Source of the DNA: Harmothoe impar | Taxonomy: Eukaryota; Annelida; Polychaeta; Phyllodocida; Polynoidae | Direction: 5' to 3' | Assembly: GCA_947462335.1 (NCBI GenBank) | Contig: OX381705.1 | Location: 33,813,570 to 33,877,569 of the forward strand | DNA: 64,000 nt | Shown: positions 8,801 through 63,872 of the stretch, one piece after another | Numbering within the stretch: position 1 is the first letter of the stretch | Layout: every line of letters starts with the position of its first letter | Program-made: the position numbers and the translations under genes | Notes under the pieces: generated by a model | What the model was told of the DNA's origin: nothing | The model's input: only the letters and a program-made list of their open reading frames with translations | Database searches by the model: none

Positions 8801-9944
8801 TCTGGAATTTGTAAATGTATAGAGCTTGGATAGAGGAAGCCAATATGCAGGGTGACTCAATATAACTATGCACAGATTCTGCACATTTGTTAACAAATGC
8901 AACATTACACTCTGATAATATTCTTATGTGCTCTGTGCCTAAACCTGTTGTCACCATATATATAACTGTATTTGTGTATCTTTTGTGTTACAGAACTGGA
9001 AGGTGGATGACGGAGAGCCCGGCTGGTTGCCGCTATGGGAGGAGCTGGTACCCCAGGACACCACAGGCATAGTCCAGCTCACCTCCGGCTTAAACACATC
9101 TTTCATGCTACCCTTTGAGAACTATGACGAGCTGCGCTTCTACCGCTGGGCCATGCCCTCCAACTGGAAGCAGTGTTTCCTCTACTCAGTCTTGTACATT
9201 GTGGTCATCTTCGGGGGTCGGCGGCTGATGGAGAAGAGGCAGCGCTTTGAGCTGCGGACTGCACTCACCTTGTGGAACCTGGGGCTGGCTGTGTTCAGTA
9301 TCTGCGGCGCGGTGCGCATGAACCAGGAGATGTTCCACTCGCTGCGCACGCATGGCCTCGAGTACACCTTCTGTGTTCCATCCTTCGGCTACCCGCCCTT
9401 CGGCTTCTGGGTGGTGACGTTCGCTATCTCTAAGGTGGTGGAATTTGGAGACACGGTGTTCATTGTGCTCCGGAAGCAGCCGCTCATCTTCCTGCACTGG
9501 TACCACCACGTGGCTACCCTGATCTACACCTGGGTGGCCTATACGGAGAGGATGTCCTCCGGGCGCTGGTTCATCACGCTTAACTTCACCGTTCACGCCT
9601 TCATGTACTCGTACTACGCGTTACGCGCGTTGCGTGTACGGGTGCCGCGGTGGGTCAACGTGTGCATCACCACCATGCAGACTTTACAGATGGTGGTAGG
9701 CATCGCCGTCAACTACGGCGTCATCCTCGTCAAACGTCGCGGCGACCACTGTCAGCAGTCTTACGGCAACGTCACATTCTGCCTTCTCATGTATTTCAGC
9801 TACTTCCTTCTCTTCTCCTGGTACTTTTACAATGCCTACATCAGGGCCAAGCCAATTAAGCCTGTCCCTAAATCACACCACAATGGTGTACATGCCAACG
9901 GGGTATCCAATGGAGTTAGCAATGGTATAAAGAAGTATGACTAG
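5894..9944 (+). CDS. ELOVL6: very-long-chain fatty acid elongase, ELOVL3/6 type
   Basis: Condensing enzyme of the ER fatty-acid elongation cycle (acyl-CoA plus malonyl-CoA to 3-ketoacyl-CoA). The main exon, 8994-9944, follows TTTTGTGTTACAG. It holds the histidine box HWYHH (about residues 170-174), FGGRRLMEKR, a GDTVF segment, the MYSYYALR motif and several membrane segments. FLHWYHH is typical of ELOVL3/6 rather than the polyunsaturated-fat elongases. The open frame has no ATG at its 5' end. The best start is ATGTCG at 5894-5899 (A at -3), followed directly by GTAAGC, which joins in phase to AACTGG and gives a 318-residue protein. A later in-frame ATG at 9105 would give a shorter form closer to vertebrate length. 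The C terminus carries NGV/SNG repeats and ends KKYD, a KKXX ER-retrieval signal. The 3094-bp intron carries two transposon insertions. Family certain; ELOVL3 versus 6 and the first exon less so. Confidence 0.9.
6775..6990. repeat. degenerate GTTGGCCCAAC-type palindromic repeat
   Basis: Several inverted CCAATATTGG, TTGGCCCA and GGCCCAATA motifs are clustered here in the elongase intron. The same word family is at 4210-4310 and, better preserved, at 57858-58110. Ends could not be defined. Confidence 0.35.
7309..8295. mobile_element. foldback element with CAAATCCCA ends
   Basis: A 987-bp inverted-repeat unit in the elongase intron. The left end AAGCTCAAATCCCA (7309) and the right end TGGGATTTGAGCTT (8295) are inverse, and the similarity continues inward for over 100 bp (for example GCCTCCCAAACCTCTGCAAT at left against its inverse at right). 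The middle (7905-8085) folds on itself through GATCACTGAGGTAACTCTCC and its inverse. The motif GCAATTTGG recurs many times. A distinct element with the same CAAATCCCAC end is at 37040-38081. Confidence 0.7.
8358..8735. mobile_element. MITE, GGC(C)AAAA...GTTTCAGG ends
   Basis: Left end GGCAAAAAAAAAAGG then TGTGTTTCAGGCAACC; right end GGTTGCCTGAAACACACC in inverse orientation ending TTTTGGCC. The interior holds inverted ACCCTAG copies and a palindrome at 8591-8624 (10-bp arms TGAGTCGCGA and TCGCGACTCA). Relatives are at 13322-13497 and, decayed, at 12583-12835. It ends about 260 bp before the elongase main exon. Confidence 0.7.
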
Positions 9945-16723: not shown

Positions 16724-19700
16724 AATAATATTTCATTTCGTATATTAACAGACTTCTTTGGTAACTCAATGGACTGCCCACCTGGGGGCCACTTCATGTT
16801 GACCAGGGCTACCTGCAGGGGCCCATATGGGCTTTAGCCCAGATTTGAAATGGGCTTGCCTGGTTAGGATCTAAGTGGGGCCAAGGTGGGCTCCCTTAGT
16901 TGGGGGACACATATTGGGGGGATGGGGGCTGGAGGGATGGACACCAAATGTTAGCTATAAGCCTAGTCATTATCTAAAACTCTCCTGCACTTGATGAGCA
17001 TCTGTTAAGAGAAGGTACCAACAAACAAGTGTTCTGGACAGTGGTTGCTTAAGTTATCTGCAGTTAATGTCATCTCTTCCCTTTATTCAAGGGGAGACAC
17101 AAAATGCATCCTTTGACTAAGTTCAACTCTGATCACATTGGGTGACACAGTCAGAGTTCCTGTAAGTCGGACAGCAATACCTGATTCAGTGCTGGGATTA
17201 TGCATTATGATCATATTCAGAGGAAAGGTGTCTGAATCAGAATGCTCCTTGTTTTTCTACTCATAATGCAAAATTGTGTAGACAATTTCACATAATATGA
17301 ATTAACTGTGAAAACTGTTTCATTTGCAACAGTTTTAAGGTAATTGTGAATTTATCCCTCATTGAAATAGAAACAAGAAAATGTCTGTAGGATACCAGAT
17401 TTCCTGTACTGCCAATGATGACCTATTCTAATGGTAAGCTCAAGAACAGTACTAGCCCACTTAACCCAGGGCTAGCCTAGCTGAACCCCACTCTTTTGGA
17501 GAAACTAGGTCTTGACCATGAAAGTTGTATTGGCAGAATTAGCCCAGAAAGTGAAGTTTGTGTGATGGCCCACATGGGGCCTATCTGGGAGCCCACACCC
17601 AGCTCATGGAAAATCCATGGAGACTTTAGTCTACTTAGCCCAGCTCTAGCCCAGGTGGAACCCAGGCTGACAACATAGAATAAAAGGCTTGCATTTTCTA
17701 GGGGGGAAAAGACAAGAGAGGATGAATTAAAGTATTATATGTATCTGCAATGCAAGAAATCCATAAAAAACAAATAAAGTAAAAGTTCAGTTCATGGTCT
17801 GAGCCCACCTGGGCCCTACACAGCCAACACACCCTAGTGAGCCATAGGTTGGTCACAGATGGGCTGCCTTATGGGGCCCATAATTATGGGCTGCCCATCT
17901 GAGGGCCGCTTTGTTTTGACCGGGCCTATCAGGTGGGGCCCAGAAGGGCTTGCCCAGGTTTGAAGTTCAGATCTAAGTGGGACCCAGGTGGGCTCCTTTA
18001 GTTGGGGAACACATAATTGGGGGGTGGGGGCTAGGGGGACGGACACAACATTTTTTTTAGCTATAAGCTTAGTCTTTATGTAGTTGATGACCATATGTTA
18101 AGAGTAGTTACCAACAATTATTCCGGTAGGTCAATTAATTTATTTGCATTTAATGTCATCTCTCCCTTTATTTAAGGAGGAGAAGCAAAATGCATCCTTT
18201 GACTAACTACAATTCTGATCACATTGGGTGACACAGTCAGAGTTCCTGTAAGTCTGATAGTGATACCTGATTCAGTGCTGGGATAATGTACCATGATCAT
18301 ATCCAGGGGAAAGGTGTCAGTATCAGAATGCTCCTTGTTTCTCTATTCATATGCAAAATTGTGTAGACAATTTCACATAATATGAACGTACTGTGAAAAT
18401 TGTTTCATTTCAATGGTTTTGTGAATTCATGGCTCATTGTAGTAAAGACAAGAAAATGTCTATAGGATATCAAATCCCATGTACTCTCAATGATGACATC
18501 TAGTGGTGAGCTCAGGAACAATACTTGCCCACTTAGCCCAGGGCTAGCCCAGATGAACCCCACTCTTTTGGGGAGAGGTCTTTGAAATGTGATCATGAAA
18601 GTTGTGTTGGTAGAATTAGCCCAGAACGTGAGGTTGGTGAGCTGGCCCACATGGGGCCCACCTGGCAGCCCACACCAAGCCCATGGAAAACCCATGCAGA
18701 CCTCAGCCCACCTAGCCCAGCTCTAGCCCAGGTGAAACCCAGGTAGACAACATAGCATGAGAAAAATAATTTGAACTTGCATTTTCTAGAAAAGAGAGAC
18801 AAGTGAGGATAATTTAAAGTATCTGCAATGCAAGAACTCCATTTAAAGCCAAGTTCAATACATGGGCTAAGCCCATCTGGTCCCTACCTGGCTGCCCATG
18901 CTGAACCCATGGGAAACCCAGGGACACCTTTGCCCAGTTTGCCCATTTCCAACCCAGGTGAAACCCACATTTGTAGAAACGCATATAATGTCAATTTAAA
19001 ATGTAAATCAATTGAATATTTTCAGAAATGACCATGAATTGAAGGATTTGCAATGCAAACATGACATGATGATATTCTGGGCTGATCCCACATGGGCCGC
19101 ATCTGGAAGCCCTGACAATAACCAGTAAATACCCAGATATGGGCTAGCCCAGGGTGCCCATTTGAGTGTGTTGGCTGGGTACCTACCCCCCCCCCTGCTG
19201 AGCCCATAGGAGACTCAGGGACACCTCTGCCCAGTTTCTCATTTGCAACCCAGTAAATTCTTGAAATATTTTCAGAAATGAGCATGAATCGAAGGATATG
19301 GCTCACTCTCACCAAATCAGTGCAACTAAAAAAGTGACGTACATGATCGGCGGACGTACATGATCGGCGGACGTACATGATCGGCAGAGTCCAAAATCCG
19401 TCTTTTACCCCCTGCACTACGATGTTTAACTCTCCCAACCATACCTACAGGCTGTAATGTATCTTTGGGGAGTTTATTAGAAAAAAAAACTCCCAAAATA
19501 TTTATAGGGGCCGGAGGGGGGGGGGCTCAATGTGTAACCGATCATGTACGTCACATGACGTACATGATCGGCTTGGAATGTCATGTAAAATTTCCTATTT
19601 ACCCACTGCTTGACCTGTCTATGATTACACATATTTAGACCTACATCATATGTACACCTCACTATGATTGATTAATGTTTTAAATATGGTCAGAAAAGGT

Positions 19701-22700
19701 AATTAAAGCAGTCAATAAATAATGGCCGATCATGTACGTCACATGACGTACATGATCGGTATTGAAATGTCATGTAAAATACTCTTACTAGACTCATCTA
19801 CACATTTAAACCATTTGAAATACCAAGACAGACATTATATGTACACCTTGGTAAGGTTTATAAATCTTTTATTATGGTCAGAAAGAGTAGGGCAGTCAAT
19901 AATCACCGATCATGTACGTCACCGATCATGTACGTCACATGACGTACATGATCGGCATTGAAATGTCATTTAAAATACTCTTACTAGAATCATTTACACA
20001 TTTAAACCATTTTAAATACCAATACAGACATTATATGAACACCTTGGTAAGGTTTACTTATGTTATATGATGATCAGAAAGACTGGGGCAGTCAATAATC
20101 ACCGATCATGTACGTCACCGATCATGTACGTCACCGATCATGTACGTCACCGATCATGTACGTCCACCGATCATGTACGTCACCGATCATGTACGTCCAC
20201 CGATCATGTACGTCCACTGATCATGTACGTCACTTTTTTAGTTGCACTGATTTGGTGAGAGTGAGCCATATGCAGTGCAAACATGACATTATTTTTATCT
20301 AACTGCAGAGAGAGTCACCCCCAGACATACTACTTTTCACAGAGTGGATGGTACAAAGAGACGGGCAACGACTAGGGGCCCACCAGGTAATGTAGCCGGT
20401 CACCCAGGTAACACTCAGCCTCAGGTAGGACTACACCTGTTCTTACTGGGGTCTAACCCTGGGTTCGCGAATCAATGAACTCTGCTTATTCATTTGACTC
20501 GATTTAGACAAAAGAATTGTTATTGCATGTGACTATACTAACGTCCATTCTCCAAGTTGTAATATATAGTGCTAACCTTATAACTACGCATTATTTCTAA
20601 TGGGGACGGGCGCTTTTTCAGTTTTTATATTTCCTTTACACATCTGACCTGCATTCAAGGCATTATTATAAACATGTGTACACCGTTTATTCTATATACT
20701 GTGATTATGTATGTGTATAAAAGTGCTCAAAAGTGCATATATGGGGTTATTCAGGTATGCCCCAAAGGGGATTTTTCACTTGTCACTGACTCTTGCAACA
20801 ATACTGCAGTGCACTTGATAATACAAGTCATGTTCGTAATACCCTCAGAGAAATCCCCTGTCGTTCGTTAAAATGATAGTGTAACAGTGCATGTGGACGA
20901 CCATTGGTTAGTCTAGACATAATTATATGATAACTTGATAGTTTAAGTGGTAGATCTGGTACAAGTGGGTCTGTAAAAGTGTTATAAGCCAAGGACAGGG
21001 TAATTGTCCAAGGAGCCAGCAGAGGATAACTACTATTATCCGAGACTTATAACGCTTATGCAGCTACTCACACATATCATATCTGACTTATACTCTCAGT
21101 AGGAGAGGCTGCTCAATAGTCAGGATCCACTTACAGCCATGTTTGTAACATACAATCAGCCCATATCTTTTGTTCTCTCAGCCAACTGTTGTGAAACGGC
21201 AATGTACAATATTATCTCTGGTGGCATTCAACAGTTAATTATGGGCCATGCACAGGCCCATTATATGTCACAGTGGGTGAAAACGGCAATGGTGTTATAA
21301 ATCTGTTGTTAATCATAATATGATGGGTGTGCTGAGCGAAATAAGAATTATAACTGTTTAAAGAAGACCGTAGATAACCCCCTGCTTCACATCTGTCCCA
21401 TAGTTTTGGCGTGAAATAAAGAATCCCGTTGTCTATTCTCTAAATATATCATTGAACTATCTCACCATACCTCTATCATGTGTGTGGCAGGCGGAGCGGC
21501 AGGCAGTGTGCCTCGAGGTACCCCTCCTGGTGGCACCAACGGTGTCTCAGCAGGTAAGCATTATGTTGTAGACCTCCAACAGGAACATTTCTCAGATATG
21601 ATATTAATAGTCCTCAAGATATCCTAATGTTAGCAGTTTTCTCTTCGCCAGTTTCCACTAAATAGCCTTGGGTTTGTCGGTACGTGCGACATGAATGTTA
21701 TTGCAGCTGGTATTGGTGTTAATGTTGTTGCCGGTGTTGTTGTTGTAGTTGTTGTTGTTGCTGTTGTTGTATCTTGTTCATCCTATAACTCAGGTCAGTG
21801 CCAGTTCCCCTCTGAGTGGCGGAATGGCAAGCAGTGGTGGCGGGGGTACGTCAACAACATTGTGGAGATCTCCGTGCCTGGACTGGACTACATCTATGAG
21901 ACGTTCGGCACCAAGTCCATCAGCACCTTCCAAAAGTCACAGCCCAACCAACAGCTAAGTAGGTTCAGCAACTCATAGTTTAGATATATAGACACATGCC
22001 AACACCCATTGATACCGTCTTTATTGTATTTTAAGAGTGGGGCTATGACCCAGCCCCCACGAGTGAAATACATCAGAGACAGTATCAATGTAGTTTATTT
22101 TTCTTCATTTGAATCCCTTTAATGAAGGAAAGATAACCCTTTCCTAGCCCATTGGATACGGCCACATTAGTTACGCCCTGTAATGGTCTCTTAACCCGTC
22201 AACTTGGTAACTCTGATGTATGCATCTCTCTGGCAGCTACGTACGAGTGTCTGGGAGCTGGGCGGCGGGGTCCGGCCTACATCTACGTCCTCGTCCACGA
22301 CAACAAGCTCTTCTGTAGGGAGTACGCCGAGGATGCGGGGATCCTGCTCCTGAGGTGGATTTCTGTCGGCATCCTACCCGGTAAGACACAGGCTGGATGT
22401 GTTGTGTACTATTGTGTTCTGTATCATTGATATAGGTCACCATTCTCTATATTACTAATCTATATACTACAACCAGGAACTATGCTACCATTCCCTATAC
22501 TACTACCATTCCCTATTATGCTATCCCTCTCTATACTGCTACCATTCCCTATAGCACGGTTACCATGCGATTATCTATACTGTTCCCTATAATACTACCA
22601 TTCCATTTGCTACTATAATTATAGTACATGTACTACCATTCCTCGGCCCTAACTTAAGCTGTTACTGGTGAGATAATCACTGATAACAGTTGTCACATGG

Positions 22701-25700
22701 ATGCTAGTTACACCTTAGGAATTCTTCAATCAATGATTGTTCAGGGAATTCCCTGGCATATCCAAATACCTTTCTCTATGCCAATGCTATCATTCTCTAT
22801 AAGCCTACCACTGTCATTCCCTGTCCTACTACTATTCCATATTCTACTACAAGGCCCTATCCTACTACCATTTTCCTATACTGCTGCTTATATATACCAT
22901 TCTATAAACTATAGTACTAGGCCTACTGGTATGATATTGTTCCATGATCTATGCCCCTACAATCTTTCTGTGTACTACTTCTACATTTAAAATTGTCTGC
23001 ATTTTCCGTACTAGCACTGCTACTATTACCCTTCCCTGTACCATTAATACACTTCTCTATCTCACCAAGAAATCCCTATGATACTGTAGGGGTTGTGGAA
23101 GTATCACACGAACACAGGTTCCAAATTCGGTTTGAATGCAATAGATTTTATTCAGTCACGATCACAGCCTCAAAGTAACACGAAGGTTTGCTCGGTTCAG
23201 TTAGATAACCAACTCGAAGATGTACAGCGTTCTACCTTTAGTTCAAAGTCAGCAAAGCTGGATGATCTGGTCCTGAGCCAGCATGGCTGGTGCAGGAGCC
23301 AGAGAGTGAGAGGGGTGTAGGTGCCCCGTAATCGAAAAGGTAACGAAGGTATTGAAAGGTGTGGGTCTGAGCTCGTCCTGGGACGAACTTCCTGAGGTAG
23401 CCAACCTCGGCCTCTTATATACCCTGAGCGCGGACCAAGCAGTGTCGACGTGGCACTACACCGGCGCGCCGTCTGGAGTGCCCTGCCTGGCTCCGCTACC
23501 GGATAATCAAAAGGACATAGCGTAGGTGTTGCCACCTAGTGTCCGAAGGAGGCACTTCCCACGTTGACTCCACGAACCCATATATACACGTATTATTCAT
23601 GCCCCTACATCACTATCAGTCTCTACACTACTACATGTATACCACTGCTTCTATCCTCTATAATACTAGTACTATGTGCACTGTTCTGTTTCAGTGCAAA
23701 ATGTACCTCCTACATCCCAGTGGGCAACCTTCAGTTGATTCAATGTTGATTCAATGTGTGTAGCGACATGATATCAACAGTTGATACAGGGTTGTCATTT
23801 TGTTGATATTGATGAGGTCATCAACGTTGATCATTCATCAGTGATTCAACATTGAAATGGCCATTGTGAATCAACAACAAATAAACATAATAAAATGATT
23901 TACATTGATTTGATATTCACTGCTGATGCAAAATTTGAAATTCAGTATATCAGATACAGTATTCTTATGTAGACTGATTCCTTCAATTTACATATTTTCA
24001 TTACAACATCTCCCCCTCCTCCATTTCTCCGAGATTAAATGCTAATTTTAGCACCATCCAGGGAAGGGGTACATGAAAGAACTTTGATGATCACACTAAG
24101 AGGCATTCACATCCATTTTAAACTGAGCTGGTCATGACTGAGGCTTTATCTATTATTCTTAGCAACATAAAGGGTGTCTTACTGAAACCATGCATGTATT
24201 CTTGTCATTTAATTCCAAATGTCAACCAAATGCACACACCATAATTGTCGATGAAAATGAATGACATTTTGATCAATTGTATACATTGATGAGAAAATAA
24301 GAGCTTACAATTAGGGAAAATTGATGTAGCATGGAGATAGAAATGCTAAGGAGTAGGTTGTGGAGGCACCTAGTGGGAAAGGTGGGAAAACCCATGGTTG
24401 ATTCAAGGTTGATATCCAAACATTGCATCAATGTTGAAATAGGGGCTGGTTGACAACATTGAAATTGCAACATTGCATCAATGTTGAAAACAGGTTGATC
24501 TACCCTGCAACCCTATATCAACCAGTTGTCAACGTTGAATCAAGGGTTTGTGCCCACTGGGTAGCGGGCGATTTAATCGGTTTCTGTAATGAAAATGTTT
24601 CTGCATATCAAACAGGAATTAAGTAATCTAATCACATGCATTTTTGTAACAATTTCGGTATGACAATTTTGTTTGAATATTCAATCCAATGCGATACATG
24701 ATCATTTTCCTAATATTTGTTGAATTATAAAACTGTCATTGATATTAAAAGTTTTGGAACCATTGTCTCTGTTCCATGCAGGCTCGATACCCAGTATCCA
24801 GGCGTGTGCAGACGCACTGTCCTCCATGTCATCCTACGAGGTCCTTCCCCTGTGTAAGTATTACTTTTGTAATATAGGCTCAGGTTCGATGCTTTCAAAC
24901 TCTGTAAATTGATTTTTCTTCCAAATTTGAATCTTATAAAATTATAATCACTTTTCTACTTCTATTTTTGCATTAAAATATAAAGTGAATAATCAAATCA
25001 GTTCCAGGAGGATTTATCATAAGTTAACGGACGATTTTCAACACCAATGGTTGATAATCTGGAGTGAATCAGTTGTGAGATTGTTAATGGGGACTATAGG
25101 AGAACGTCTCGTTGGGCAGTAAAATCGTCGGAGAACTGGACTTGGCCGAGAATTGGGCAGTTGGTTTTATATATCCATACCTTTTCCACCTGTAGTTAAC
25201 CCACAGACTGGGGAGGTGGAGGTTCGGAACTGTCCCTTACCGTTTGGTGTGTACAGGACCACTGTGGTAGAGCAGACCTCGTTAGGACGGAAGACGTTCT
25301 GTGAGGACCGTGCTGACTCCAGGACTATCATCAACAAGGCTAAGATAGATGTGGAGACCTGCCTCCGGGCCGACTCCTATGGTGAGCCACTCTTAGTACT
25401 TTACATGTACTGTATAAGGTATCGAGGTGTGACTAGGGTAAAAGGTCTATTTAACTCCAATTTCAGTTGGTCCTTTTATTGTATGTGGGATGACTATAGG
25501 TGTACATGTTTTACTATATGTATCCTCTTGTACAAGGCCAGAATAACAATTATTTAGCTTCTCTATAATGTTAACATTGGCCAGGACTCGCTCACTCAGA
25601 ACTGACAAATTAATCTCACAGAAAAGGGTGCATTTTAGGCAGACATGCTACTTTATTATTGCGAAGACTGTGGTGCAGGTCTACCAAGAAGGGTCTACTA

Positions 25701-28700
25701 ACATTTGGCAAGTAATTCCATTATGTCTCTTGTATGGCATTTGATTTAGGCTGTTATTATTTATCATGTATTTGTGTTGACCACAGAGAAGCCGTACTAC
25801 TCCTACATGTACTGTGTGGCTTCCTGGGACGGTAACAAACTGGGGGATAACTTCGGCTTGGTAGCAGCCAGCGACAAGAGTGTGCTCCTCCTGTACCAGA
25901 ACAAGAACACCAACGCGCGGCCACACTTCTACGTCGGGGTGAGTCCTAATTTCAACTGTTACAAAACACCATTCTTATTTATTAGCTACTGATTGTTCCT
26001 ATTGTGTTGGCCTAGCATTTTACCAAGTACTTCGGGTGTCCCATGGACGTGGTTGGGTAGTTTGCTTACACATAAAAGTTCGATTTCTGTACTACACAGT
26101 TGAAATAGCACCCTTTCCTAAATCTGCTGCAATTTATTTGTTATTAGAGATACAAGAATCAGAGTACCCACAAGAGTGCACACAAACGTTTGCATTGAGT
26201 TGATACTTCGTTATTTTATTTCCCTCATGTTTGCGGCATAACCCCTACCAAAAAGCTTAGAAAAGTTTCCTATTGCGTGAAGCTCTCGATGCGAGTAGTA
26301 TATGGAATTTGTGCATTGAGACAGGCAATGTATGTTGAACGTCTATTCGTCTGATTAAAACAGGAAGAATCCTAGCGTTGTGAGCGGTACACCATACTTG
26401 TCCTGCTGCTATTTTCTCCCGGGTATTTTCTAATATGTCACGTTGTCCACATTACAGAGGTACCGCACGGATGCTGCAGGCAAGCTGCTGCTCAGTCTGT
26501 ACGTGGCTGACGTGAGGGGCATCACAGGGGTCCTCACCGCCACAGCCGAACAGAAGAGTACATCCTACAAGAACTTTATATTCACAAGTAAGAGGAAACT
26601 TCATACATTAGCATAATTGTACATTCATGAATCTGAATTTAATCATGGTTAGCTACACGCCTTTTACATGTTGATTGAATGACATATGCTGTGTGCGTAT
26701 TATGTCATATTGAGGTTGTGTCAGTTCCTGATTGACATTTCGTGCACGTACCTGTGAGATATTGTAAAACAACATTATAAAACGACAAGTTGTGTGTAAT
26801 ACCTTGAGCGGCGTTTCCTGCCGCTCGTTACAGTCCAGGGTGACTGGTCTTTGATTGGTCTAGACATAGTCATAACAACTTTTGATTGTTTGCACGGTAA
26901 TGTATACAACATTATCAGTCGGCCTACCACTCAACAGCCAATCAAGGATCAACTAATTGTTTAATCGTAGCCCGTTGTTGGTGCAGAATATTGAGAATAT
27001 ATCACCACATTTCTCATACAAATAGTCATTTGTTGTATTCGCTGAGATGTACATTAACCTGTTGTGCCTACCGCTGACAGAGACCGGGGAGGCCCCTGAC
27101 CTGTCTGGGAGTGTGAGTCAGACAGATAACCCCATCACAGCGCGGTGTTTGGGCGGCTGTCTGAACGGTGTGTGCAGGGAGAAGGCTGCTGGCTGGTCGT
27201 GTGACTGCAAGCTGGGATATAGCGGCAAGAGTTGTGAGAGAGGTGAGCATTGGGCATCATAACAAAGTAAATTGCCAAAATTTAATGTTAAAGGATGAAA
27301 GTCACAGTCAAATAAAGCAATTAGATATGTGGTTGTGCTGCCTTTAATTATACATTGTGTAGTGCTGTGTAAGAGCATAGATATGACTTTATTTCTTGAC
27401 AATAATTTATTATACCAGAGGAAAATATCTTAAGCAGAAATTCAATTTGATCACTACGTTTGTTCATTTACATTGATATAGTTGGTAGAACGTTATGGGT
27501 TAAATATGTAGCGCTGTCAGTGTCTGTGAAATAAAACCGCACATAACTGCCTCCATTGTAGCCCTGACAAGAGGAGACTGTGCCAAGACGCCGTGTGTGA
27601 ACGGCCTGTGTCAGCAACATGGGGACTACTACTACTGCGGCTGTAAGGAGGGATACACAGGACTCAACTGTGACGGTCAGTAGCTAACTTAGTAAATGTA
27701 AGGCATGATGTGGCAGGACATAAACTATGGCATTCAACCTAAAGATTTTAGATTAGTCTCTGGAGCCCTCCACTACACAATAATGGACCGTGTTCTTCTG
27801 TGTACATGCGGAGCAGTCCTTGAGCTTGCAGAGTGTCTGCCTAACCCATATATACTTTCAGTTGCCGAGTAAAGCCTGTTAACCCATGTACTGTCCATTT
27901 CAGTTGCCGAGTAAAGCCTGCTAACCCATGTACTGTCCATTTCAGTTGCCGAGTAAAACCTGCTAACCCATGTACTTTCCCCTTCAGGTGGCCTTTTTTG
28001 TCTGCTCAACCCACCTACTTTCCCTTTCAGTTGGCCAGTACTGCCTGCCTAACCCAGTACATACACGTTTAGTTGGCCAGTACTGCCTGCCTAACATGTT
28101 TACTTTCCCTTGTAGTTGGCCAGTACTGTCTGCCTAACCCATGTACTTTCCTTTTAAGATGGCTATTATTGTCGGTATAATCCATCGTAGTACAATTATT
28201 TGTATTTCCTCTTTCAATTGGCCAGTACTGCCTGCCTAATCCATGTACTTTCCCTTTCAGTTGGCCAGTACTGTCTGCCTAACCCATAATTATACCTTCC
28301 CCTTGCAGTTGGCCAGTACTGTCTGCCTAACCCATAATTATACCTTCCCCTTACAGTTGGCCAGTACTGTCTGCCTAACCCATAATTATACCTTCTCCTT
28401 ACAGTTGGCCAGTACTGTCTGCCTAACCCATATACCTTCCCCTTACAGTTGGCCAGTATACTGTCTGCCTAACCCATATACCTTCCCCTTACAGTTGGCC
28501 AGTACTGTCTGCCTAACCCATAATTATACCTTCCCCTTACAGTTGGCCAGTACTGTCTGCCTAACCCATATACATTCCCCTTACAGTTGGCCAGTACTGT
28601 CTGCCTAACCCATAATTATACCTTCCCCTTACAGTTGGCCAGTACTGTCTGCCTAACCCATATACCTTCCCCTTACAGTTGGCCAGTACTGTCTGCCTAA

Positions 28701-29037
28701 CCCATGTGCCCGGGGAGTGTGTGAGCTGTTCCAGGGTGGCTACAGGTGTCTGTGCCCTGACGGCTACACGGGACGGGAGTGTGCGGAGAACGTGGTGGCG
28801 GAGGCTGAGGAGGACAAGAAGATCCTGATCGTGCTGACCACCCTGCTGAGTGTGTTCGTGGTCGGGGTGGTGGTGGTGGCCATCATCATCTGTCAGTGTA
28901 AGAGGAAGAAGGAGGAGAAGTTGATGCCGGCCAACCCTGACGGCGACCTGCCCAACCAGACCTACTCCTCCATGACCTCGTGGTTCCCAGACTACAAGCG
29001 CGAACTGGCGGCAGCCGAGGAGGCTTACAGTACATAG
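14531..29037 (+). CDS. type I membrane protein: signal peptide, Cys-Phe-Pro modules, three EGF domains, TM helix
   Basis: Fifteen coding exons join in frame to 593 residues: 14531-14572, 14992-15010, 15305-15349, 16422-16472, 20309-20386, 21491-21553, 21794-21958, 22237-22380, 24782-24853, 25196-25381, 25787-25938, 26458-26587, 27081-27242, 27562-27675 and 28679-29037. Residues 1-20 are a signal peptide ([20 protein letters not shown]). Residues 21-99 are Gly/Thr/Pro linkers, one short phase-1 exon each. Residues 100-226 carry [10 protein letters not shown] and TYECLG; 227-382 carry CPLPF, TFCED and [11 protein letters not shown] domains lie at about 404-435, 442-473 and 479-509. A TM helix at about 523-545 is followed by CKRKKEEK and a 45-residue tail with YSSM. 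Most exons are phase 1-1, which allows exon shuffling or skipping. The Cys-Phe-Pro/CxxSW modules resemble DUF7042-7045-type animal extracellular domains (from memory). Ligand and role unknown. A 9-nt microexon at 16061-16069 could add three residues. Confidence 0.85.
16631..16719. repeat. (TA)n microsatellite
   Basis: About 88 bp of TA dinucleotides in an intron of the EGF/TM gene. Confidence 0.98.
16774..19060. repeat. tandem duplication of a ~1.1-kb intronic unit, with partial third copy
   Basis: Two adjacent copies start at about 16774 and 17891 (CTGCCCA...GGGCC...TTTTGACC). They stay alignable throughout: GATCACATTGGGTGACACAG occurs at 17131 and again at 18217, an offset of 1086 bp. A partial third copy continues after ~19000 and is interrupted by the element at 19300. 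The unit is rich in GGGCCCA and AGCCCA words. No coding content. Confidence 0.8.
19300..20267. mobile_element. 968-bp TIR element built from a TGACGTACATGATCGG repeat
   Basis: Perfect 49-bp terminal inverted repeats begin GGCTCACTCTCACC (19300) and end GGTGAGAGTGAGCC (20267), flanked by ATAT on both sides (19296-19299 and 20268-20271). The repeats run into subterminal arrays of a 16-17 bp unit (CACCGATCATGTACGT; three copies left, eight right). Inside are three ~190-bp tandem segments, each opening with a 34-bp palindrome (16-bp arms, CA spacer) at 19538, 19726 and 19922. No coding frame, so it is non-autonomous. The sequence at 19021-19060 looks like the unfilled target. It sits in the intron before exon 20309. 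Confidence 0.85.
20896..20945. repeat. dispersed repeat with CATTGGTTAGTCTAGACATA (copy 1, partial)
   Basis: GACCATTGGTTAGTCTAGAC followed by AATTATATGATAACTTGAT matches 26848 and 30376, where longer copies occur. Confidence 0.45.
21690..21778. repeat. GTT-rich microsatellite just before exon 21794
   Basis: Imperfect GTT/GTTGTA repeats form part of the pyrimidine-poor region upstream of the acceptor CTATAACTCAG. Frames read across it as poly-valine are not coding. Confidence 0.8.
21984..22165. repeat. dispersed repeat, GCCAACRCCCATTGATACCG family (copy 1)
   Basis: Starts ATATAGACACATGCCAACAC and ends near TTTCCTAGCCCATTGGATA. The same order of motifs, including CCCCCACGAGTGAAATAC and TTTAATGAAGGAAAGA, occurs at 33925-34165. 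Both copies hold an internal inverted GATACCGT/CAGTATC pair. Confidence 0.65.
22440..23690. repeat. degenerate CTACCATTCCCTATACTA minisatellite, split by an LTR-like insertion
   Basis: Roughly 18-bp units with the core ACCATTCCCTATA run from ~22440 to ~23060 and resume, weaker, at ~23585-23690 after the insertion at 23083-23578. It is intronic between exons 22237 and 24782. Confidence 0.6.
23083..23578 (-). mobile_element. putative solo LTR
   Basis: A GC-rich block in AT-rich surroundings. On the minus strand it begins TGGGTTCGTG, has a TATA box (GGTATATAAGAG, near 23413-23424), then AATAAAATC near 23150 and ends CCCCTACA, so it runs TG...CA with a TATA box followed by a poly(A) signal as an LTR does. 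I could not find a matching target-site duplication, so the exact ends are tentative. No internal retroelement genes are present. A 112-residue frame inside it is not recognisable as a protein. Confidence 0.5.
23716..24561. mobile_element. 846-bp TIR element, CCCAGTGGGCA ends
   Basis: CCCAGTGGGCAACC at the left and TTTGTGCCCACTGGG at the right are inverse. Both ends continue into TTGATTCAA/GTTGAT-type repeats, which fill the flanks of the element. No coding frame. The same end occurs on the 107-bp element at 34394-34500. Confidence 0.75.
26838..26990. repeat. dispersed repeat with TTGGTCTAGACATA (copy 2)
   Basis: GATTGGTCTAGACATAGTCA, then CACGGTAATGT, TACCACTCAACAG and TTGGTGCAG appear in the same order as at 30376-30526. 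Intronic in the EGF/TM gene. Confidence 0.55.
27834..28704 (+). repeat. tandemly amplified intron-exon junction (about 18 decoy 3' splice sites)
   Basis: The last intron of the EGF/TM gene ends CCTTCCCCTTACAG and the last exon starts TTGGCCAGTACTGTCTGCCT. This whole junction (pyrimidine tract, AG, first ~26 exon bases) repeats upstream. Unit starts are 27862, 27904, 27946, 27988, 28031, 28073, 28116, 28157, 28218, 28261, 28309, 28357, 28405, 28449, 28495, 28543, 28587, 28635 and the real exon at 28679. Early units are 42-43 bp and diverged; the last ten are near-identical and mostly 44 or 48 bp. AG is kept in all but the unit at 28218. The 48-bp units put an in-frame TAA right after the copied exon bases, whereas the 44-bp units shift the frame. 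Confidence 0.95.
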
Positions 29038-29376
29038 AATGATAATACCCAATGTGCATCTTCAACAACATAGGGGAGTAGACAGTCTTTGATAACGGGG
29101 TTTGAGATTTGATCATATTTATATCATTAAATATTTTTTAATATTTGGTTTAATTTGGTCCCCATGGTTCACTCGTACTCTAGGGCAGGGAGCAAGATGT
29201 TTCGGGGAGGGGGGGACTGATGTGAGGTGCAGCTGACAAGGTGCCTGTCGCAGGGATATATGTTAACGTCCTTTGTAACACACCTAGTTTTAAAAAAAGC
29301 CATATGGACTATACATGGAGGTAACATTGATTGATTTTAATACATCAAGAGCAACGGCGACTCATTGAACATGTAT

Positions 29377-29619: not shown

Positions 29620-29625
29620 AATAAA
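29620..29625 (+). promoter_or_regulatory. candidate poly(A) signal of the EGF/TM gene
   Basis: AATAAA 583 bp after the stop codon, the first one downstream on this strand that I found. Confidence 0.4.
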
Positions 29626-31068: not shown

Positions 31069-33423
31069 ATGCATCAGCATTTCGGCAAAGTAGTCATGCT
31101 GGTAAGTATATATCCTATTCAATGTTTCTGTTATTGGTGTGTTCAGACATATAATGCAGTACCCCCATTCAGAGAATCCAGACATAGATGATAAGCAACA
31201 AAGCTCACCAGGAAGGACTTAGAAACCCCTAAAGCCTCGGCCCCTTCTGAAACACTATCATGCAGTATGCAGGTTATCTGCTACTCTGCGAAACAGAATA
31301 GCAACTTGTATGTACCATGTAACATGTGTATTCTCATCAGCTAGATAACCACAATGTAGCAGGCCTACCCCATGTATCGTTCTGCTAAGTATGTCCGGGT
31401 AAAATCAGTTATAAGTAACCTCTTAATACAATATATCCTGATATAATCACTCTACTCTATGGTGATAGACATGCATGCTGTTTAACACCAGTTGTAGACA
31501 CGAGACATTGTGGACAGAATGGAACAAACTTGTGCTTATATTTCGAATGCAGCTGCTATTACTGGTGGCATCCATACTAGTAGACCCAGTTACACCAGCA
31601 TCAACTACACTGACAGAACCCACAACAACAGAGTCAACATCAATAGTAGAAACCACAACACCAGAGCAGACCACACTACAAGAAACCAGAACTACAGACC
31701 CAACTACACTAGCAGAAACCTCAACAGCATTCCCAACAACACTGTCAGAAACCACAACAGAGCCAACAACACTAGCAGAAACTACAACAGAGCCAACAAC
31801 ACTAGCAGAAACTACAACAGAGCCAACAACACTAGCAGAAACTACAACAGAGCCAACAACACTGGCAGAAACTACAACAGAGCCAACAACACTGGCAGAA
31901 ACTACAAAAGAGCCAACAACCCTAGCAGAAACTACAACAGAGCCAACAACACTGGCAGAAACTACAACAGAGCCAACAACAATGGCAAAAACTACAACAA
32001 CAGAGTCAACAATACCGACAAAAACCATAACATCCGTGGATGCCACATCTGAATCAACCCACGTGCCATCAACATCCGAGTCCATTATATCAACAACAGA
32101 GGACATGGCAACATCAACAGAGATATTTACTACAAAATCACCTGGTAGGTCATTTGTTATGTGCCAGAATATCACTATAATTGTATAGGTATGTGAATGA
32201 GGTAGTTCTAATGTATGGAATGGGTATGTTAGCATCACCCCCGTACCTGATGATCCTCCTTTTTTCCAAAGCTTATAATAGACTTGAAAAATGTAAAAGC
32301 TTCATTGGAAACAATTCTGACGTAAATTCTAAATCAACTCTCTCTAATGTGTTCACTCTCCGAACCTTATCAAAATAACTCCATGAGAGATATGACAACC
32401 GTAGGCCTACACTGAACTACTGGGCGCTTACTGAAATCAAAATAACGGGGGAAATTATCGGCCCACAAAAGAAATGACCACATTGACCAGATGATCAAAT
32501 TGGAAAGGCGACAATTCGGTGAGAGCTTACTCACAGCTAAATATAACTATCTCATTTCAAGAAAATAAGATTATTATTATGTGTCCACCAGACGAGTTTG
32601 ATAATCTTATTTTCTTGAAATGAGATAATTATTTTTGGCTGTGCTATATCTTGAATTCTGGTTTTCAATTTACAGTGTGTGTGCCTGGTCACTTTGGGAG
32701 CACATGTGAGTTTGTGTGTCTGTGTGCCGACCATTCTGAGGCATGTGACATAAGGAGCGGTTCCTGCAAGTCTGGATGTCCACTCGGACGACAGGGACCT
32801 GGATGTAATCTATGTAAGTAGTAGCCTATAGTAGCTCATGTATGAGGGTGTGATGCTTTAAGGTCAAAATATGGATGAAACATAATCAACATATTTTGGG
32901 TCAGGAAAGATCTAATACGATTTAATCAGGCTAATGATCTCCAAAATTGAGTCTAAGGGTAACCCAGTAAACAAAAAACGTTATACAGCATTTTATAACG
33001 TTCATAAGGTTCCTTTGTATGGCATAACGTTATGTATAGTTTTAAATCGTTATTTTGACGTAAAATTATGTTTCTTTTGGTAGCTGGGAAGCCATATGTA
33101 TAGTCACCAGATCTCTCAGTCACCGGAGAAAGGGTTATCCTAGGAAACCCATTTCATTGTAAATAACATGTAACAATGTGCCCTGAATATGCTCACATAC
33201 AATGTGCTCCTGTGTGTTACCTGCAGCTGTGGGTGGGGACGAGCCTGTGGTGCTGGTACTGGGCCTGCTGCTGGCCGCCGCCCTGCTCCTCATGCTGACC
33301 TTCCTCCTCCTGTGGGTCAGAACTAAGCGACTGCAGTATTACAGCGGCGCGGCCGACCACCACATATATGAGTTCCCACATATGGCAAGTGTGGACAACC
33401 CCAGCTACGATATTGTCAAATAA
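31069..33423 (+). CDS. mucin-like type I membrane protein with one MEGF-type EGF domain and an NPxY tail
   Basis: Four exons join in frame to 319 residues: 31069-31101, 31553-32144, 32676-32813 and 33227-33423. The signal peptide spans the first junction (MHQHFGKVVML then LLLLVASILV, with cleavage probably near TPA). A Thr-rich stalk follows, with about nine copies of the 10-residue unit TTEPTTLAET encoded at 31757-31990, likely dense in O-glycans. The third exon is one EGF-like domain (CVPGHFG start, CDIRSGSC core) of the MEGF10/Draper sort. The fourth gives a TM helix (about residues 261-285), a basic stop RTKR and a tail with IYEF and NPSYDIV, where NPSY fits the NPxY motif that binds PTB adaptors or drives endocytosis. 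Joins are phase 0 then phase 1, as in the neighbouring EGF/TM gene. A role as an adhesive or uptake receptor is inference. Confidence 0.8.
31757..31990 (+). repeat. 30-bp coding minisatellite (Thr-rich stalk)
   Basis: In-frame units ACAACAGAGCCAACAACACT plus TGGCAGAAACT-like sequence, nearly identical. The low divergence and 30-bp length make copy-number differences between alleles likely without frame loss. All six frames stay open here, so long antisense frames are artefacts. Confidence 0.9.
32963..33088. mobile_element. AACGTTATA mini-element, CCCAG ends
   Basis: CCCAGTAAACAAAAAACG at the left, TTTTGGTAGCTGGG at the right; inside are GCATAACGTTATGTA and TTATTTTGACGTA. About 126 bp, in the last intron of the mucin-like gene. 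Confidence 0.65.
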
Positions 33424-36050: not shown

Positions 36051-39000
36051 TTAGAGCCAGATGTCAGACGTGCAGTCTCCACCCGGGTAGCGCATCTCGT
36101 GAGCAAAGGAGGGACCATGGGGCTCCTCTCCAAAGTCCACGCCAAAGTCCTCATTCAGCTTTATGCCGCCATTAACCGTGTCCACATCTATCACAAACAT
36201 CCAGGAACCCTTCCTGCAAGTACAGTAAACATGTGGATCAGATCATACCACGAAGCACAAGGAATGGGTGGGTTAGATCCTACTACAAAGCACACTGAAT
36301 GTGGAGGTCAGACCCGGGGGGTCACTGAGTCTATGAGGGTAGATAGCAACTGCCGCCCTACCGCCCCTCTTATCACAGCTTGGGAAATTTGACCGCCCTA
36401 CTTCTCAGAGGTTGGGGAATTTGACCGCCCTATATTTCAGAGGATGGGAGATTTGACCGCCCCACTTTTCAGAGGTTGGGATATTTGATGATCTATTACA
36501 AGTTAAGGTCTCCCTGAATTTTGTACAAATACAATTTTGTTCATCCCTTTCAGCAAGAAAACTTGCTCAATTTAATTATATGATTTTAACCGCCCTACTT
36601 ATTAGGGCCTTGATGACATCTGACCACCCCCCTTTTCAGGATCTAATGGAAATTCACCGCCACCGCTTTTCAGAGTCATGCTGCAGTGGTTATCCAATAC
36701 ATGGTAGAGTGCCCCCCCCCCCGGAGGTCAGATTATACCTCATAGAACACCAAAAATGGGGGACAGAGTATACCCCAAAGCACAGCTAATATGTGGGTCA
36801 GATCTCATATCACAAAGCACACAAAACATAGGGGTCAGAGCAGTAGGCCTAGAGGTTAAATTGTACATTGTGCATTATCTTTTTTTTATCTCAATCAATT
36901 GGAAGGTTTAACTATTGTGAATACCAGTTTTGGTAGAGATTATACTATACATTGTCTATTATATTTTGTTTCTTTTTATCACAATCAATTGTATGTAACA
37001 ATCAATAAGATTTGAATACATTCTCTTCTAAGTACCTAAAGGTCAAATCCCACTGGGTGTTTTATGCGGGAAACTCTCTGCGTATTGGGGATCTGTTGCG
37101 ATTTGGGGATCTCCCTCCAATTGGCAACAGATATAACTATAAGAGGGAGGTATAACTGCAAGGAAACTAAGATTTAGATAATTAGATATTTTCCTATCAT
37201 GTTATTTCATGGTTAATAGTGTAGGATCTAACAATGGAATACACTGTAAAGTAACTCCTCCACCAATAACTACAAAATGCAATAGTTGAGGGAAAATGCA
37301 GAAAGAGAACCCTATGTACACTCAGCAGTGGGACTTGCAATTTTGAAAGGTGTGTGAATACCCTTGAAAATTAGAGAATGAGCAAGGGTCCCAGATTGAA
37401 ATATGTATAGAATACAGAGGATAACAAACCACAGATCGCATTGTGGGTGTTGGCCATAAGGTGAAAAATGGTCCTAAAAGTGTTGCATATTGAGATATTC
37501 ACAACAGGGAACTGTTGCAGATATTGCAAATCAAAACACTTCTACTGTATAGCTGGGCTGCCCTAAATCCCACTGTAGTGAATCTAGACATGCAGAGTGT
37601 TGTGTATTAGGCTGTATTGCTATGATTTGGACAGGGAGAGTGTTGTGATTTGGGCCATGTAGGGTTTGAATTCACAACAGAAGGGACTTTGATATTCAAA
37701 TTGTAAGGGAAGCTGATGCAATTATACTATCGGCCCCTCAGGATCTAACAATTTATATATAGATACATAGCTAAACACTATAAATTGCAGAGCAAAACCC
37801 TTGAATATATGCAGCATGTGGGATTTGGGTAATGACTAATCAGTGACACAACTATTGCGATATAGTAAGAAACTTTGACATATTCCAATAAGCAACATTT
37901 TCTATGCCTTCTGGTGTAAAATATCTAACTCTTTTGAAGCTTGCGATTTCCCAAATCACAAGATAAAGGCAACACTTTCTCACCAATTTGGGCCTGTCTT
38001 AGTGAATATAGGGCCCAAAATTGGCAATAACACCAACTCACAACATTTTCTGACCCTGTTTTGCATTGTGGGATTTGACCTATATACATTTTGGTTCATT
38101 TAAAACTGTGTTACTTACTTTCCCATCTCTGGGTAGAATTGGTTATCCCATGAGCTGTACAGGGATGTTGTGACATAGAGGCGTTTACCATCCAGACTAA
38201 GCTGGATCATCTGAGGTCCACCATGTACCCTCTTCCCCTTTCGGTACAGGGCCTTTGGCTGACTCTGATTGTGTAAAAGTTATTTAGAATAGATTAGGTA
38301 ATAGCAAATGGCCAAGCAGTTAAAATTTAATAGATAGTAGCTGAGTATCTAGTGCTTCTAAATGATATAGGCTCAGCTTGTGGATATCTCCTCCAATACT
38401 TTGCCTTTGATGTCCAAAGGTTAGATTTGATGATGATTAAATCTTTACTAGGAACCGTCTGTTACATAGAATCAGCAATGTAAAATATTTCTTGCTCCCT
38501 ACCACCATGGATGCCTATGTTTTCAACTATTTATACAAATTATACACAGAATAAGCATTGATTAATCTACTAATCATACCTTTAGTTCTGTGTCCTTTGT
38601 AACCTTGACAAGGTCCTCACTGCAGATACTTCCACTTATCCAGACCTGTGGTGAATGGAAAATAGAATGTACCGTAAATTCTCGCGTAGAAGCCGCGGCT
38701 TGTACGCGAGTCAGACTCAGCTTTCTTTTGATACCAAACATGCCTATATAGGGTGCGGCTTATACGAGAGTTTTTATTAGTATACTACAGTACCAAAATC
38801 GCAATATTCAGACCCCCTCTGCGGCTTATATAATTTGTCAAAGTTAGGGGTGCGGCTTATACGCGAGTTAGGCTTATACGCGAGAATTTACGGTATGTGA
38901 CTACATTAATAGATATAAGTGGCTAAGCTAAAATTTATGTGATTGCCATGCAAAGGAGAGATCATTATGTTTATGGGAATGTTCACAGATTATGACATCA

Positions 39001-53904: not shown

Positions 53905-54085
53905 TGCTCCAGTGAGGGGGTTGGACATGAGAGAGGGGGTTGGATGTGAGGAAGGAGGTTGGACGTGAGGGAGGGGTTGGATGTGAGGGAGGTGGTTGGA
54001 CGTGAGGTAAGGATTTGACGTGAGGGAGAGGGTTGGATGTGAGGGAGGGGGTTGGACATGGGAGAGGGAGTTGGATGTGAGGGAG
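53905..54085. repeat. GGTTGGATGTGAGGGAGG minisatellite (block 1)
   Basis: About nine 17-20 bp units of GGTTGGAYRTGAGRGAGG. The same repeat resumes at 54580-54790. Antisense frames reading HIQPLPHVQPP are repeat artefacts. Confidence 0.85.
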
Positions 54086-54579: not shown

Positions 54580-54790
54580 GCTGGGACCGGAGGGAGGAGT
54601 TTGGACGTGAGGGAGGGGGTTGGCCATGAGAGAGGGGATTGGATGTGAGTTGGACGTGAGATAAAGATTGGGCGTGAGGGAGGGGGTGGATATGAGGAAG
54701 GGGGTAGGATGTGAGGGAGGGGGTAGGATGTGAGGGAGGGTGTTGGATGTGAGGGAGAGGTTTGGACAGGAGGGAGGGGGTTGGACATAT
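54580..54790. repeat. GGTTGGATGTGAGGGAGG minisatellite (block 2)
   Basis: About ten units, same consensus as 53905-54085. Confidence 0.85.
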
Positions 54791-61153: not shown

Positions 61154-61500
61154 TTATGTACAGGGATGCCCACTCAACAAAAAGACGTTATTTTACCCTG
61201 AAAAAAAACACGTTCATTTTTAACGTTTGTTTTACATAAAAAGTTGACTCCAAATGATGTAAATAAACCTTTTGGAAAAAGAATTGCAATCTTGTTGCCA
61301 TCTTAAATAACGTAATTTAAAGGTCAAAATAGCATTGTCTCCTGGTCTACATAAAGTTTTTTGTTAAGCCAAATCGTCCAACCTATAGCTGTAAATTCTG
61401 CTCAGCTATAACAGAGACACCTCTCTGCACATCTCTCGTCAACATGTTCACGAGAGTCTGCAAGATAGTTTTTATATAACTCTTATTGCCACAGCTTTGG
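61154..61500. other. half of an AACGTT-type mini-element and unassigned sequence
   Basis: CCCACTCAACAAAAAGACGT at 61168 resembles the left end of the CCCAG/AACGTT family; no right end found. Nothing else recognised before the LINE. Confidence 0.35.
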
Positions 61501-61539
61501 TGTGTTTCTCCCATACCCTGAATGTATAGTATTTTACCT

Positions 61540-63872
61540 TCAGAACCTTTCGAAGAAACAAAACAAATTTGCAGAAGAAGAATATCATAATAAAGAAATA
61601 GACGATAATGTAAACAACCCCAAAGAGTATTGGAAAGCCATAAATAACATAGTAAATCCTAAGCCTAAAAATATTTCCTTCAGTCTAATACATCACGACA
61701 CAAACCTTCCTGTTAATAATGAGGACACGGCCAACTATATAAATCAATATTTTGCAAACATTGGCCCTAAACTGGCAGAAAACCTATCTGAACCCTGGAC
61801 ATACAAACCGGAGCCATATATAGAGCATTTCTCATTCACCCCAGTTACAGAGTTAGATTGTATAAAAATAATTTGAAAATAAAAAAATAAAAAACTGTCA
61901 GGCATAGTGGGGATAAAAACTAGTGTTTTGAAAGATGCAATGTTAGGCCTACCCTCTCATATCATGTTTATAATGAATCTCGCCATAAAAGACTCTGTGT
62001 TTCCAGATAGCTGGAAAAAGGCCATAGTGACTCCCCTCCCTAAAGGTGGGGATACCTCTGATGTAAACAATCTTAGACCAATATCAATACTACCCCTTCC
62101 CTCAAAAATTTTAGAAAAAATCCTACATAAACAAATAATGAATTACCTAACTGAGTTTAAAATTCTGACAGAAAATCAAGATGGTTTTAGGCCTTTCAGA
62201 TCAACTATACATAGTCTTACAGAATTCACAAACAATGTTTATAGAGAGTCAAATAATGATAATGGTACGACAGCAATATTTTTGGACTTTAGAAAAGCCT
62301 TCGATACAATTAATCACATAATATTAAAAAATAAATTATCCAAATTAGGCTTCAAAACTAACCCCATAAATTTAACAGTAAACTATCTTTCAAACAGGGT
62401 CCAAACAACAAAAGCAAATGGCATCATGTCAGATCCACATCCTGTCTCTTGTGGAGTACCACAAGGGTCAGTTCTAGGACCATTACTCTTTATTATATAC
62501 ATCAATGACCTAGGCTCGGTCTTACAGGATATGTTATGTCAGCATTATGCCGATGATACGGTGGTTTATTTTCCTAATGGTGAGCAAAGTATAAATGTGG
62601 AGAATACTATTAATCAAGATTAAGCTAAGGTAAATACCTGGTGTAAGGCAAATAAACTTTCCTTAAATGCAAAAAAGACTAGAGTTATGAACCTTGGGAC
62701 AGATGCATTGTTAAAACAGATGCCTAAAACATCTATAAAAATAGAAAAATACTCCATTAACAAGGGCATATACATATAGGTATTTGGGCATTACCATAGA
62801 TACAAATTTGAATTTCAAGGCACATGTCAAAGGGGTAAACAGAAATGTAAACCACAAAACCCACATGTTCAGAAGGTATAGAAGAAAGATAAGCACAGCA
62901 GCCAGTGAAAAAGTGCTTAAACACATGATACTCCCTAGCTTAGACTATGGTGACACTCTCTATGATGTAGCTCCAAAAACTATTTTGGAAAACCTTCAAA
63001 CAGCTTTCAACAGGGGTCTAAAAACCACGTATAATAAGGAGGAATTCCATGAAGCCCCCTCCTTAGCTAAGTTAAAGGTAAATACCCTTGCTGACAGAAG
63101 AGAGATGCATCTAAGTCAATCTGCTTTTATCCTGTCACAAGATGATAACTGGATTGACAAAAGGGATTTCAGGACAAGAGCTCATGATGGCAAACTACTG
63201 ACTATAAAAAGGCCAAAAAAAAACTTTTACAGGAAAAGTTTGGAATTTAGGTTACCTTCACTCTGGAACTCCTTTAAAGAGGATACAAGAAATGTTATAG
63301 AAAATGTAAAATTCCAGAGTTGGAACAAGAAAAGGTTCAAGGATCGATTGGGCCCCCCCCCCCCATAAAACTGTAAAAAGTTATTTGTCTTCTTCTCTTC
63401 ACTCACACCCCCCACCCCATCACTCAAGCTTAGAAAGAAATTTCTCATAAATAGTTCATACTCAAAATTGGACAATAACATCAGTCCTTGGGAAATACCA
63501 TCATCCCTCATTTTTTTGGAAATACCATCATCCAACAAGGAAATAACATCATCCTAGGGCAAAAAACACCAGCCATATCAAATTTTTCATGTTTTTTGTA
63601 TTATAGAGAAATGATCTCTATTTTTTCTCCATAACATCAAAGGATAAATATATATGTATTGGGGGCTCAAAAATCCCACTCACGTGGGCCTGGGGCCGCA
63701 ATATATTATATTATATTATTATAAGAAATGTAATATATAACTAGCCTTTAAGGCAACTATATGTAACATAGTGGATAATCATCTTCCATATGCTACAGCA
63801 TGAACTGCCATTCGCTAACGGGGCCTGGCTCCACTGTTTGACAGGATAAATAAAGGAATAATCAATCAATCA
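61540..63872 (+). mobile_element. 5'-truncated, inactive CR1/L2-like non-LTR retrotransposon
   Basis: Plus-strand remnant with the linker and RT of ORF2. 61540-61873 gives NNPKEYWKAIN and ANIGPKLAENL. Two stops at ~61874-61882 precede a frame with LRPISILPLPSKILEK, GFRPFRSTIHSLTEF, FLDFRKAFDTINH and GVPQGSVLGPLLFIIYINDL. The active-site block YADD is at 62546-62557. A stop at 62621 sits where the frame would read D-x-AKVNTW, and a frameshift near 62775 leads to YLGITIDTNLNF and the C-terminal FRLPSLWNSF segment, ending 63368. AATAAA (63848) and an ATCA-type tail at 63861-63872 close the element. The endonuclease domain is absent. The family label rests on motif style. Confidence 0.9.

Follow-up and report, generated by a model that had tools for sequence, protein, structure and literature searches.

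The last intron of a gene for an EGF-transmembrane protein, lying in the 64,000-nucleotide stretch of DNA analysed here (the window), ends in 18 head-to-tail copies of its own junction, in which the end of the last intron and the start of the last exon are repeated together. The array is real. It is probably a minisatellite across an intron-exon boundary of the kind called a "mirage", a name that reportedly comes from the paper on amphioxus Adh3, and it would be tolerated, with the acceptor nearest the exon in use and the decoys leaving with the intron.

Host gene and anatomy of the array

The joined exons of the host gene matched EGF-like domains in three stretches (PF00008, E = 1.4e-9); reading by eye placed a hydrophobic helix after them and, beyond it, a short tail. 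A homologue of the coding part of the last exon (P0001) was 80% identical over 85%. The genes of the window and the parts of the array are as follows.

8943-9944, + strand: ELOVL6-like gene
22237 to 29038, + strand: EGF-transmembrane gene with eight recognisable exons
27562..27675, + strand: exon 7, second EGF-like domain (EGF match in the joined exons), with the donor G/GTCAGT after it
27676..28678, + strand: last intron, 1003 bases, from the donor to the true acceptor
27833..28158, + strand: older array section, comprising a partial copy and units 1-8, spaced 42-43 bp and 16-50% different from the true junction
28159..28260, + strand: units 9 (28217, AG lost) and 10 (28260), the last with an old-type intronic part
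28261..28634, + strand: young part of the array, units 11-18, spaced 44-48 bp and 0-8.7% different from the true junction
28653..28657, + strand: CTAAC within the exon copy of the last decoy; its A, at 28656, precedes the true AG by 22 nt; candidate branch point, assigned tentatively
28677..28678, + strand: true acceptor AG, assigned from the reading frame and the complete EGF cysteine pattern
28679..29038, + strand: coding part of the last exon, with the third EGF-like domain, the transmembrane helix and the cytoplasmic tail; stop codon at 29035
29620..29625, + strand: AATAAA, a possible polyadenylation signal, weak in a window with 100 AATAAA against 85 expected
42757-38124, - strand: SELENBP (methanethiol oxidase) gene

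The donor at 27675/27676, put forward in the initial annotation, and a phase-1 join to the last exon are both consistent with this gene model. From donor 27675, the true acceptor gives 119 residues beyond the junction, six EGF cysteines included, and it is from the reading frame and these cysteines that we infer the last AG to be the acceptor in use. Beyond the gene, a 239-residue open frame (31469-32188, + strand) holds about ten 30-bp repeats reading TTEPTTLAE and is mucin-like.

Counting from the exon start as anchor gave 18 decoys and the true junction, in agreement with the roughly 18 tandem copies initially annotated, and the array ends in the true acceptor at 28678. The decoy AGs end at 27861, 27903, 27945, 27987, 28030, 28072, 28115, 28158 and 28217 in units 1-9 and at 28260, 28308, 28356, 28404, 28448, 28494, 28542, 28586 and 28634 in units 10-18, the true site being unit 19; the spacings in order are 42, 42, 42, 43, 42, 43, 43, 59, 43, 48, 48, 48, 44, 46, 48, 44, 48 and 44 bp. 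The previously given unit size of 42-48 bp needs a small correction: the young half runs at 44, 46 or 48 bp and the old half at 42-43 bp with one interval of 59 bp. The AG is kept in 17 of the 18 decoys, in agreement with the single loss noted initially, and is lost at 28217 only. A partial copy starts near 27833, ahead of unit 1, and unit 14 (28448) carries a 2-base insertion. Tandem Repeats Finder (TRF) called two arrays, 27855-28163 (periods 42 and 85) and 28206-28705 (periods 48 and 92). With up to three mismatches allowed, a 29-base junction motif had 12 matches in the window, 11 on decoys and one on the true site, all of them within the array; 100 shuffles averaged 0.00 matches.

Among the 28 other exon boundaries of this gene and SELENBP (the ends of the latter being approximate), none had a comparable copy: in the boundary scan, this acceptor alone of 29 had a full copy, scoring 84 of 84, with the others at 15-25. 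SELENBP acceptor 2, at 25 against a shuffle maximum of 23, and acceptor 6, at 24 against 22, barely topped their 40 shuffles and were rejected as second arrays, these scores being too weak. Four 32-bp repeats with a pyrimidine run and CAG, at 36360-36488, were not counted as a second array because no exon was recognised there. A comparison with Rfam returned no match. Elsewhere in the window, nested tandem repeats with units of 196 bp and of 16-33 bp, built on CGATCATGTACGTCA in both orientations, occupy 19336-20233, and two close arrays with a 19-bp unit, GAGGGGGTTGGACGTGAGG or similar, lie at 53914-54085 and 54590-54786. At 61469-63368 (+ strand) lie open frames that resemble reverse transcriptase and contain a YADD motif, probably from a LINE-type element.

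Splice signals and turnover of the units

The exon start, TTGGCCAGTACTGTCTGCCTAACCC, includes CTAAC, a branch-point-like motif, and most units hold a pyrimidine tract, an AG and, within the copied exon, CTAAC at branch-point distance from the next AG. CTAA[CT] lies 17-26 nt ahead of the boundary in 16/19 units, all ten of units 10-19 among them (the units at 27903, 28030 and 28217 are without it at that distance), and in 15/19 no other AG comes between CTAA[CT] and the unit AG. Upstream of the array, the intron holds one YTNAY, 11 nt from the donor. Between the AG at 28642 and the true AG, the sole CTRAY is that at 28656. Given the scanning rule, under which the choice is made among AGs downstream of the branch point (PMC1431707), 28656 is the best candidate, and the best-placed branch point of the true acceptor would thus lie in the exon copy of the last decoy. 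Since AGs closer than about 12-15 nt to the branch point are reported to be bypassed at times (PMC1431707), a branch point slightly upstream of 28642 could also serve.

A joint test that asked for at least 14/20 pyrimidines and a branch-point motif 15-40 nt upstream of the AG was passed by 25/38 array AGs, namely 15 unit AGs and 10 second AGs located 8 nt into a copy, compared with 24/3658 AGs elsewhere. This test does not separate used from unused sites, given that the decoys equal the true site by simple measures, with units 10-18 looking as good, and that 2/7 other acceptors of the gene reach the 14/20 pyrimidine mark.

Over an alignment of 18 intronic and 26 exonic bases, divergence from the true junction was 43-50% in units 1-3 and 0-8.7% in units 11-18, and similarity rose toward the exon (rho = -0.90, p = 3e-7, 18 decoys), which bears out the view that the copies nearest the exon are the most alike. 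Units 1-10 have an older intronic part in common and units 11-18 a newer one; given that the true acceptor has this newer part too, it belongs to the younger family, and the functional site seems to take part in turnover. The initial claim that the array grows from the exon side fits the similarity gradient but is one reading of it, since homogenisation near the exon together with decay at the far edge would yield the same gradient. Turnover is also not confined to the exon side, because the difference between units 2 and 3, at the far end, is only 2.3%; local duplication may have occurred there as well, or these two units may have been homogenised.

There was no sequence sign of selection on the decoys. 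AG retention in the old units showed no significant excess, with 1/18 sites changed in the AG, 26/126 in the tract and 40/216 in the exon copy (Fisher p = 0.22); with the true junction as reference, the corresponding counts were 1/18, 77/144 and 54/234. In young units 11-18, 3/128 intronic sites and 0/208 exon-copy sites were changed (p = 0.054, the insertion in unit 14 being uncounted), which is suggestive at most.

How the array may be tolerated

We propose that some 18 copies arose by tandem duplication or unequal exchange, each taking in the end of the last intron and ~26 bases from the start of the last exon. Given that most units carry the tract, the AG and CTAAC, each duplication would supply a ready-made downstream acceptor, which may be the reason why the array is tolerated, and the true AG would always find a branch point in the copy just ahead of it. 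With an intron of 1003 bases, the last exon would be recognised across the exon, the module nearest the exon would be spliced, and the decoys would be removed with the intron. The array itself would serve no function and would vary in length. These steps from anatomy to tolerance are ones that we infer. In the human data as reported, the preference for the upstream acceptor falls where flanking introns exceed 250 nt; those data concern internal exons, and the strict exon-defined class showed a reduced upstream preference and no reversal (PMC9225289).

The copied exon start contains the 8-base palindrome CAGTACTG (28684-28691 and its copies), which allows one unit to pair with another at the RNA or DNA level and may have a part in instability. 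A unit-with-unit duplex was equalled by 3% of 300 shuffled sequences. The region 28200-28720 folded with z = -2.57, and 1/100 shuffles did as well, but shuffling destroys the repeats. The predicted accessibility of the true AG, 0.21, falls inside the decoy range of 0.10-0.98. A structure that hides the decoys is not supported, as the true AG is not distinguished from them by its predicted pairing.

If a decoy were joined to donor 27675, the frame would stay open for only 3-64 residues past the junction in every one of the 18, and 0/18 (one of the 18 being without its AG) would read the transmembrane helix in frame, so the earlier statement that decoy splicing truncates the protein before the helix is upheld. 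The annotation was also right about the TAA straight after the copied exon bases in the copies at 28261, 28309, 28357, 28495 and 28587 and about the frame shifts in those at 28405, 28543 and 28635, to which 28448 adds its insertion. Under the exon-junction rule of nonsense-mediated decay, the decayed product that it also suggested is doubtful, because the decoy stops would fall in the apparent last exon.

If the decoys were used meaningfully, the array would be a copy-number-variable switch between membrane and truncated forms, as the initial annotation suggested, and the amount of truncated, possibly soluble EGF1-EGF2 product would scale with its length. If instead they were used only occasionally, the result would be splicing noise, a mild burden kept up by a high minisatellite mutation rate while selection caps the length. 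AG retention in nearly all decoys, stops before the helix in every one and splice signals in units 10-18 as good as those of the true site are compatible with both. The old units, which keep their AG no more than chance predicts, leave the switch unsupported, while their decay with no sign of AG retention agrees with noise. The long run of near-identical young units suggests little cost, which speaks against a burden, and lancelet mirages are reported to splice normally, undisturbed by their arrays, which speaks against a switch (PMC3087553, PMC3902484). We consider noise unlikely and a switch quite improbable. Improbable to us, too, is a combined reading in which the exon codons CCT AAC (Pro-Asn) of one copy serve as branch point for the acceptor of the next, the gene needs repeats of its own exon for its last splice, and copy number in addition tunes a truncated EGF-only form against the membrane form.

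A partial assembly artefact, in which the number of young units is wrong, could draw on the identity of units 12, 15, 16 and 18 to the true junction over the 44 compared bases and on one reported case of an aberrantly assembled mirage (PMC3087553). Nevertheless, the spacing of 48/44/46 and changes private to units 11, 13, 14 and 17 show the copies to be distinct, and the old units, 16-50% different, cannot come from misassembly; we find such an artefact very hard to credit. A tolerated boundary minisatellite, spliced at the acceptor nearest the exon, is the reading that we consider most likely.

Relation to amphioxus mirages and other systems

Although the mirages pointed to amphioxus, Branchiostoma is very unlikely to be the host of this array, which probably belongs to a spiralian. 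The window SELENBP was 67% and 65% identical to Branchiostoma, 68% to Owenia, 69% to Saccostrea and 68% to Xenopus among the matches listed (the best 120 of 6476 matches, with 8000 candidates scored). In a SELENBP tree of 65 rows, the window gene fell outside a 25-row group with Branchiostoma (99/97) and grouped beside molluscs at 94/73, in a tree whose deep order is unreliable because Lingula and sponges fall among deuterostomes. In the ELOVL tree (47 rows), the closest group of the window gene (99/97) lay inside a group with an annelid (95/86), and Branchiostoma, possibly a paralogue there, was separated from it at a root that is weak.

Two neighbouring phenomena share parts of this picture. 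The model of intron gain by tandem duplication of AG/GT sites, as discussed in PMC3087553 and reported for potato RdRp (PMC4974935), resembles the array in that sequence with splice signals is duplicated in tandem. A new intron is not evident here: the copies carry an acceptor, and no GT[AG]AG that could serve as donor occurs within 27833-28704. With competing acceptors and the AG-exclusion zone as described in PMC1431707, the array shares a choice among AGs downstream of branch points; it differs in that most array AGs have their own branch-point-like motif and tract.

The array matches mirages in every structural feature tested: intron end and exon start are copied, the AG persists in 17/18 decoys, and homogenised units stand against divergent ones. 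Amphioxus mirages, reported from Adh3, the globins BflGb6 and BflGb9, PGBD5 and troponin C, are likewise minisatellite-like tandem copies over an intron-exon boundary with a splice signal in many, not all, units, and their inner units are homogenised and their edge divergent, while here the homogenised units adjoin the exon (PMC3087553, PMC3902484). The unit length lies within the reported spread (Adh3 10-72 bp, BflGb6 150-160 bp), whereas the 18 decoys compare with 6 and 3 repeat units in two BflGb6 haplotypes and 2-7 in PGBD5; the array also stands at a last exon, in a host that is apparently not Branchiostoma, and has in its copied exon a branch-point motif that goes unmentioned for amphioxus in the accessible text of these reports (PMC3087553, PMC3902484). 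The unit number, this motif and the apparent occurrence outside Branchiostoma are new here; a literature search covering few subscription papers recognised, by title or start of abstract, no such array outside amphioxus. A ladder of about ten near-identical acceptors in one intron poses the question of which one the spliceosome selects when many are equal. Should the branch point lie in the copied exon start, each duplication would deliver a complete acceptor beside the exon, which is possibly why such arrays persist, and an array that apparently lies outside Branchiostoma suggests that boundary minisatellites of the mirage kind form a wider class.
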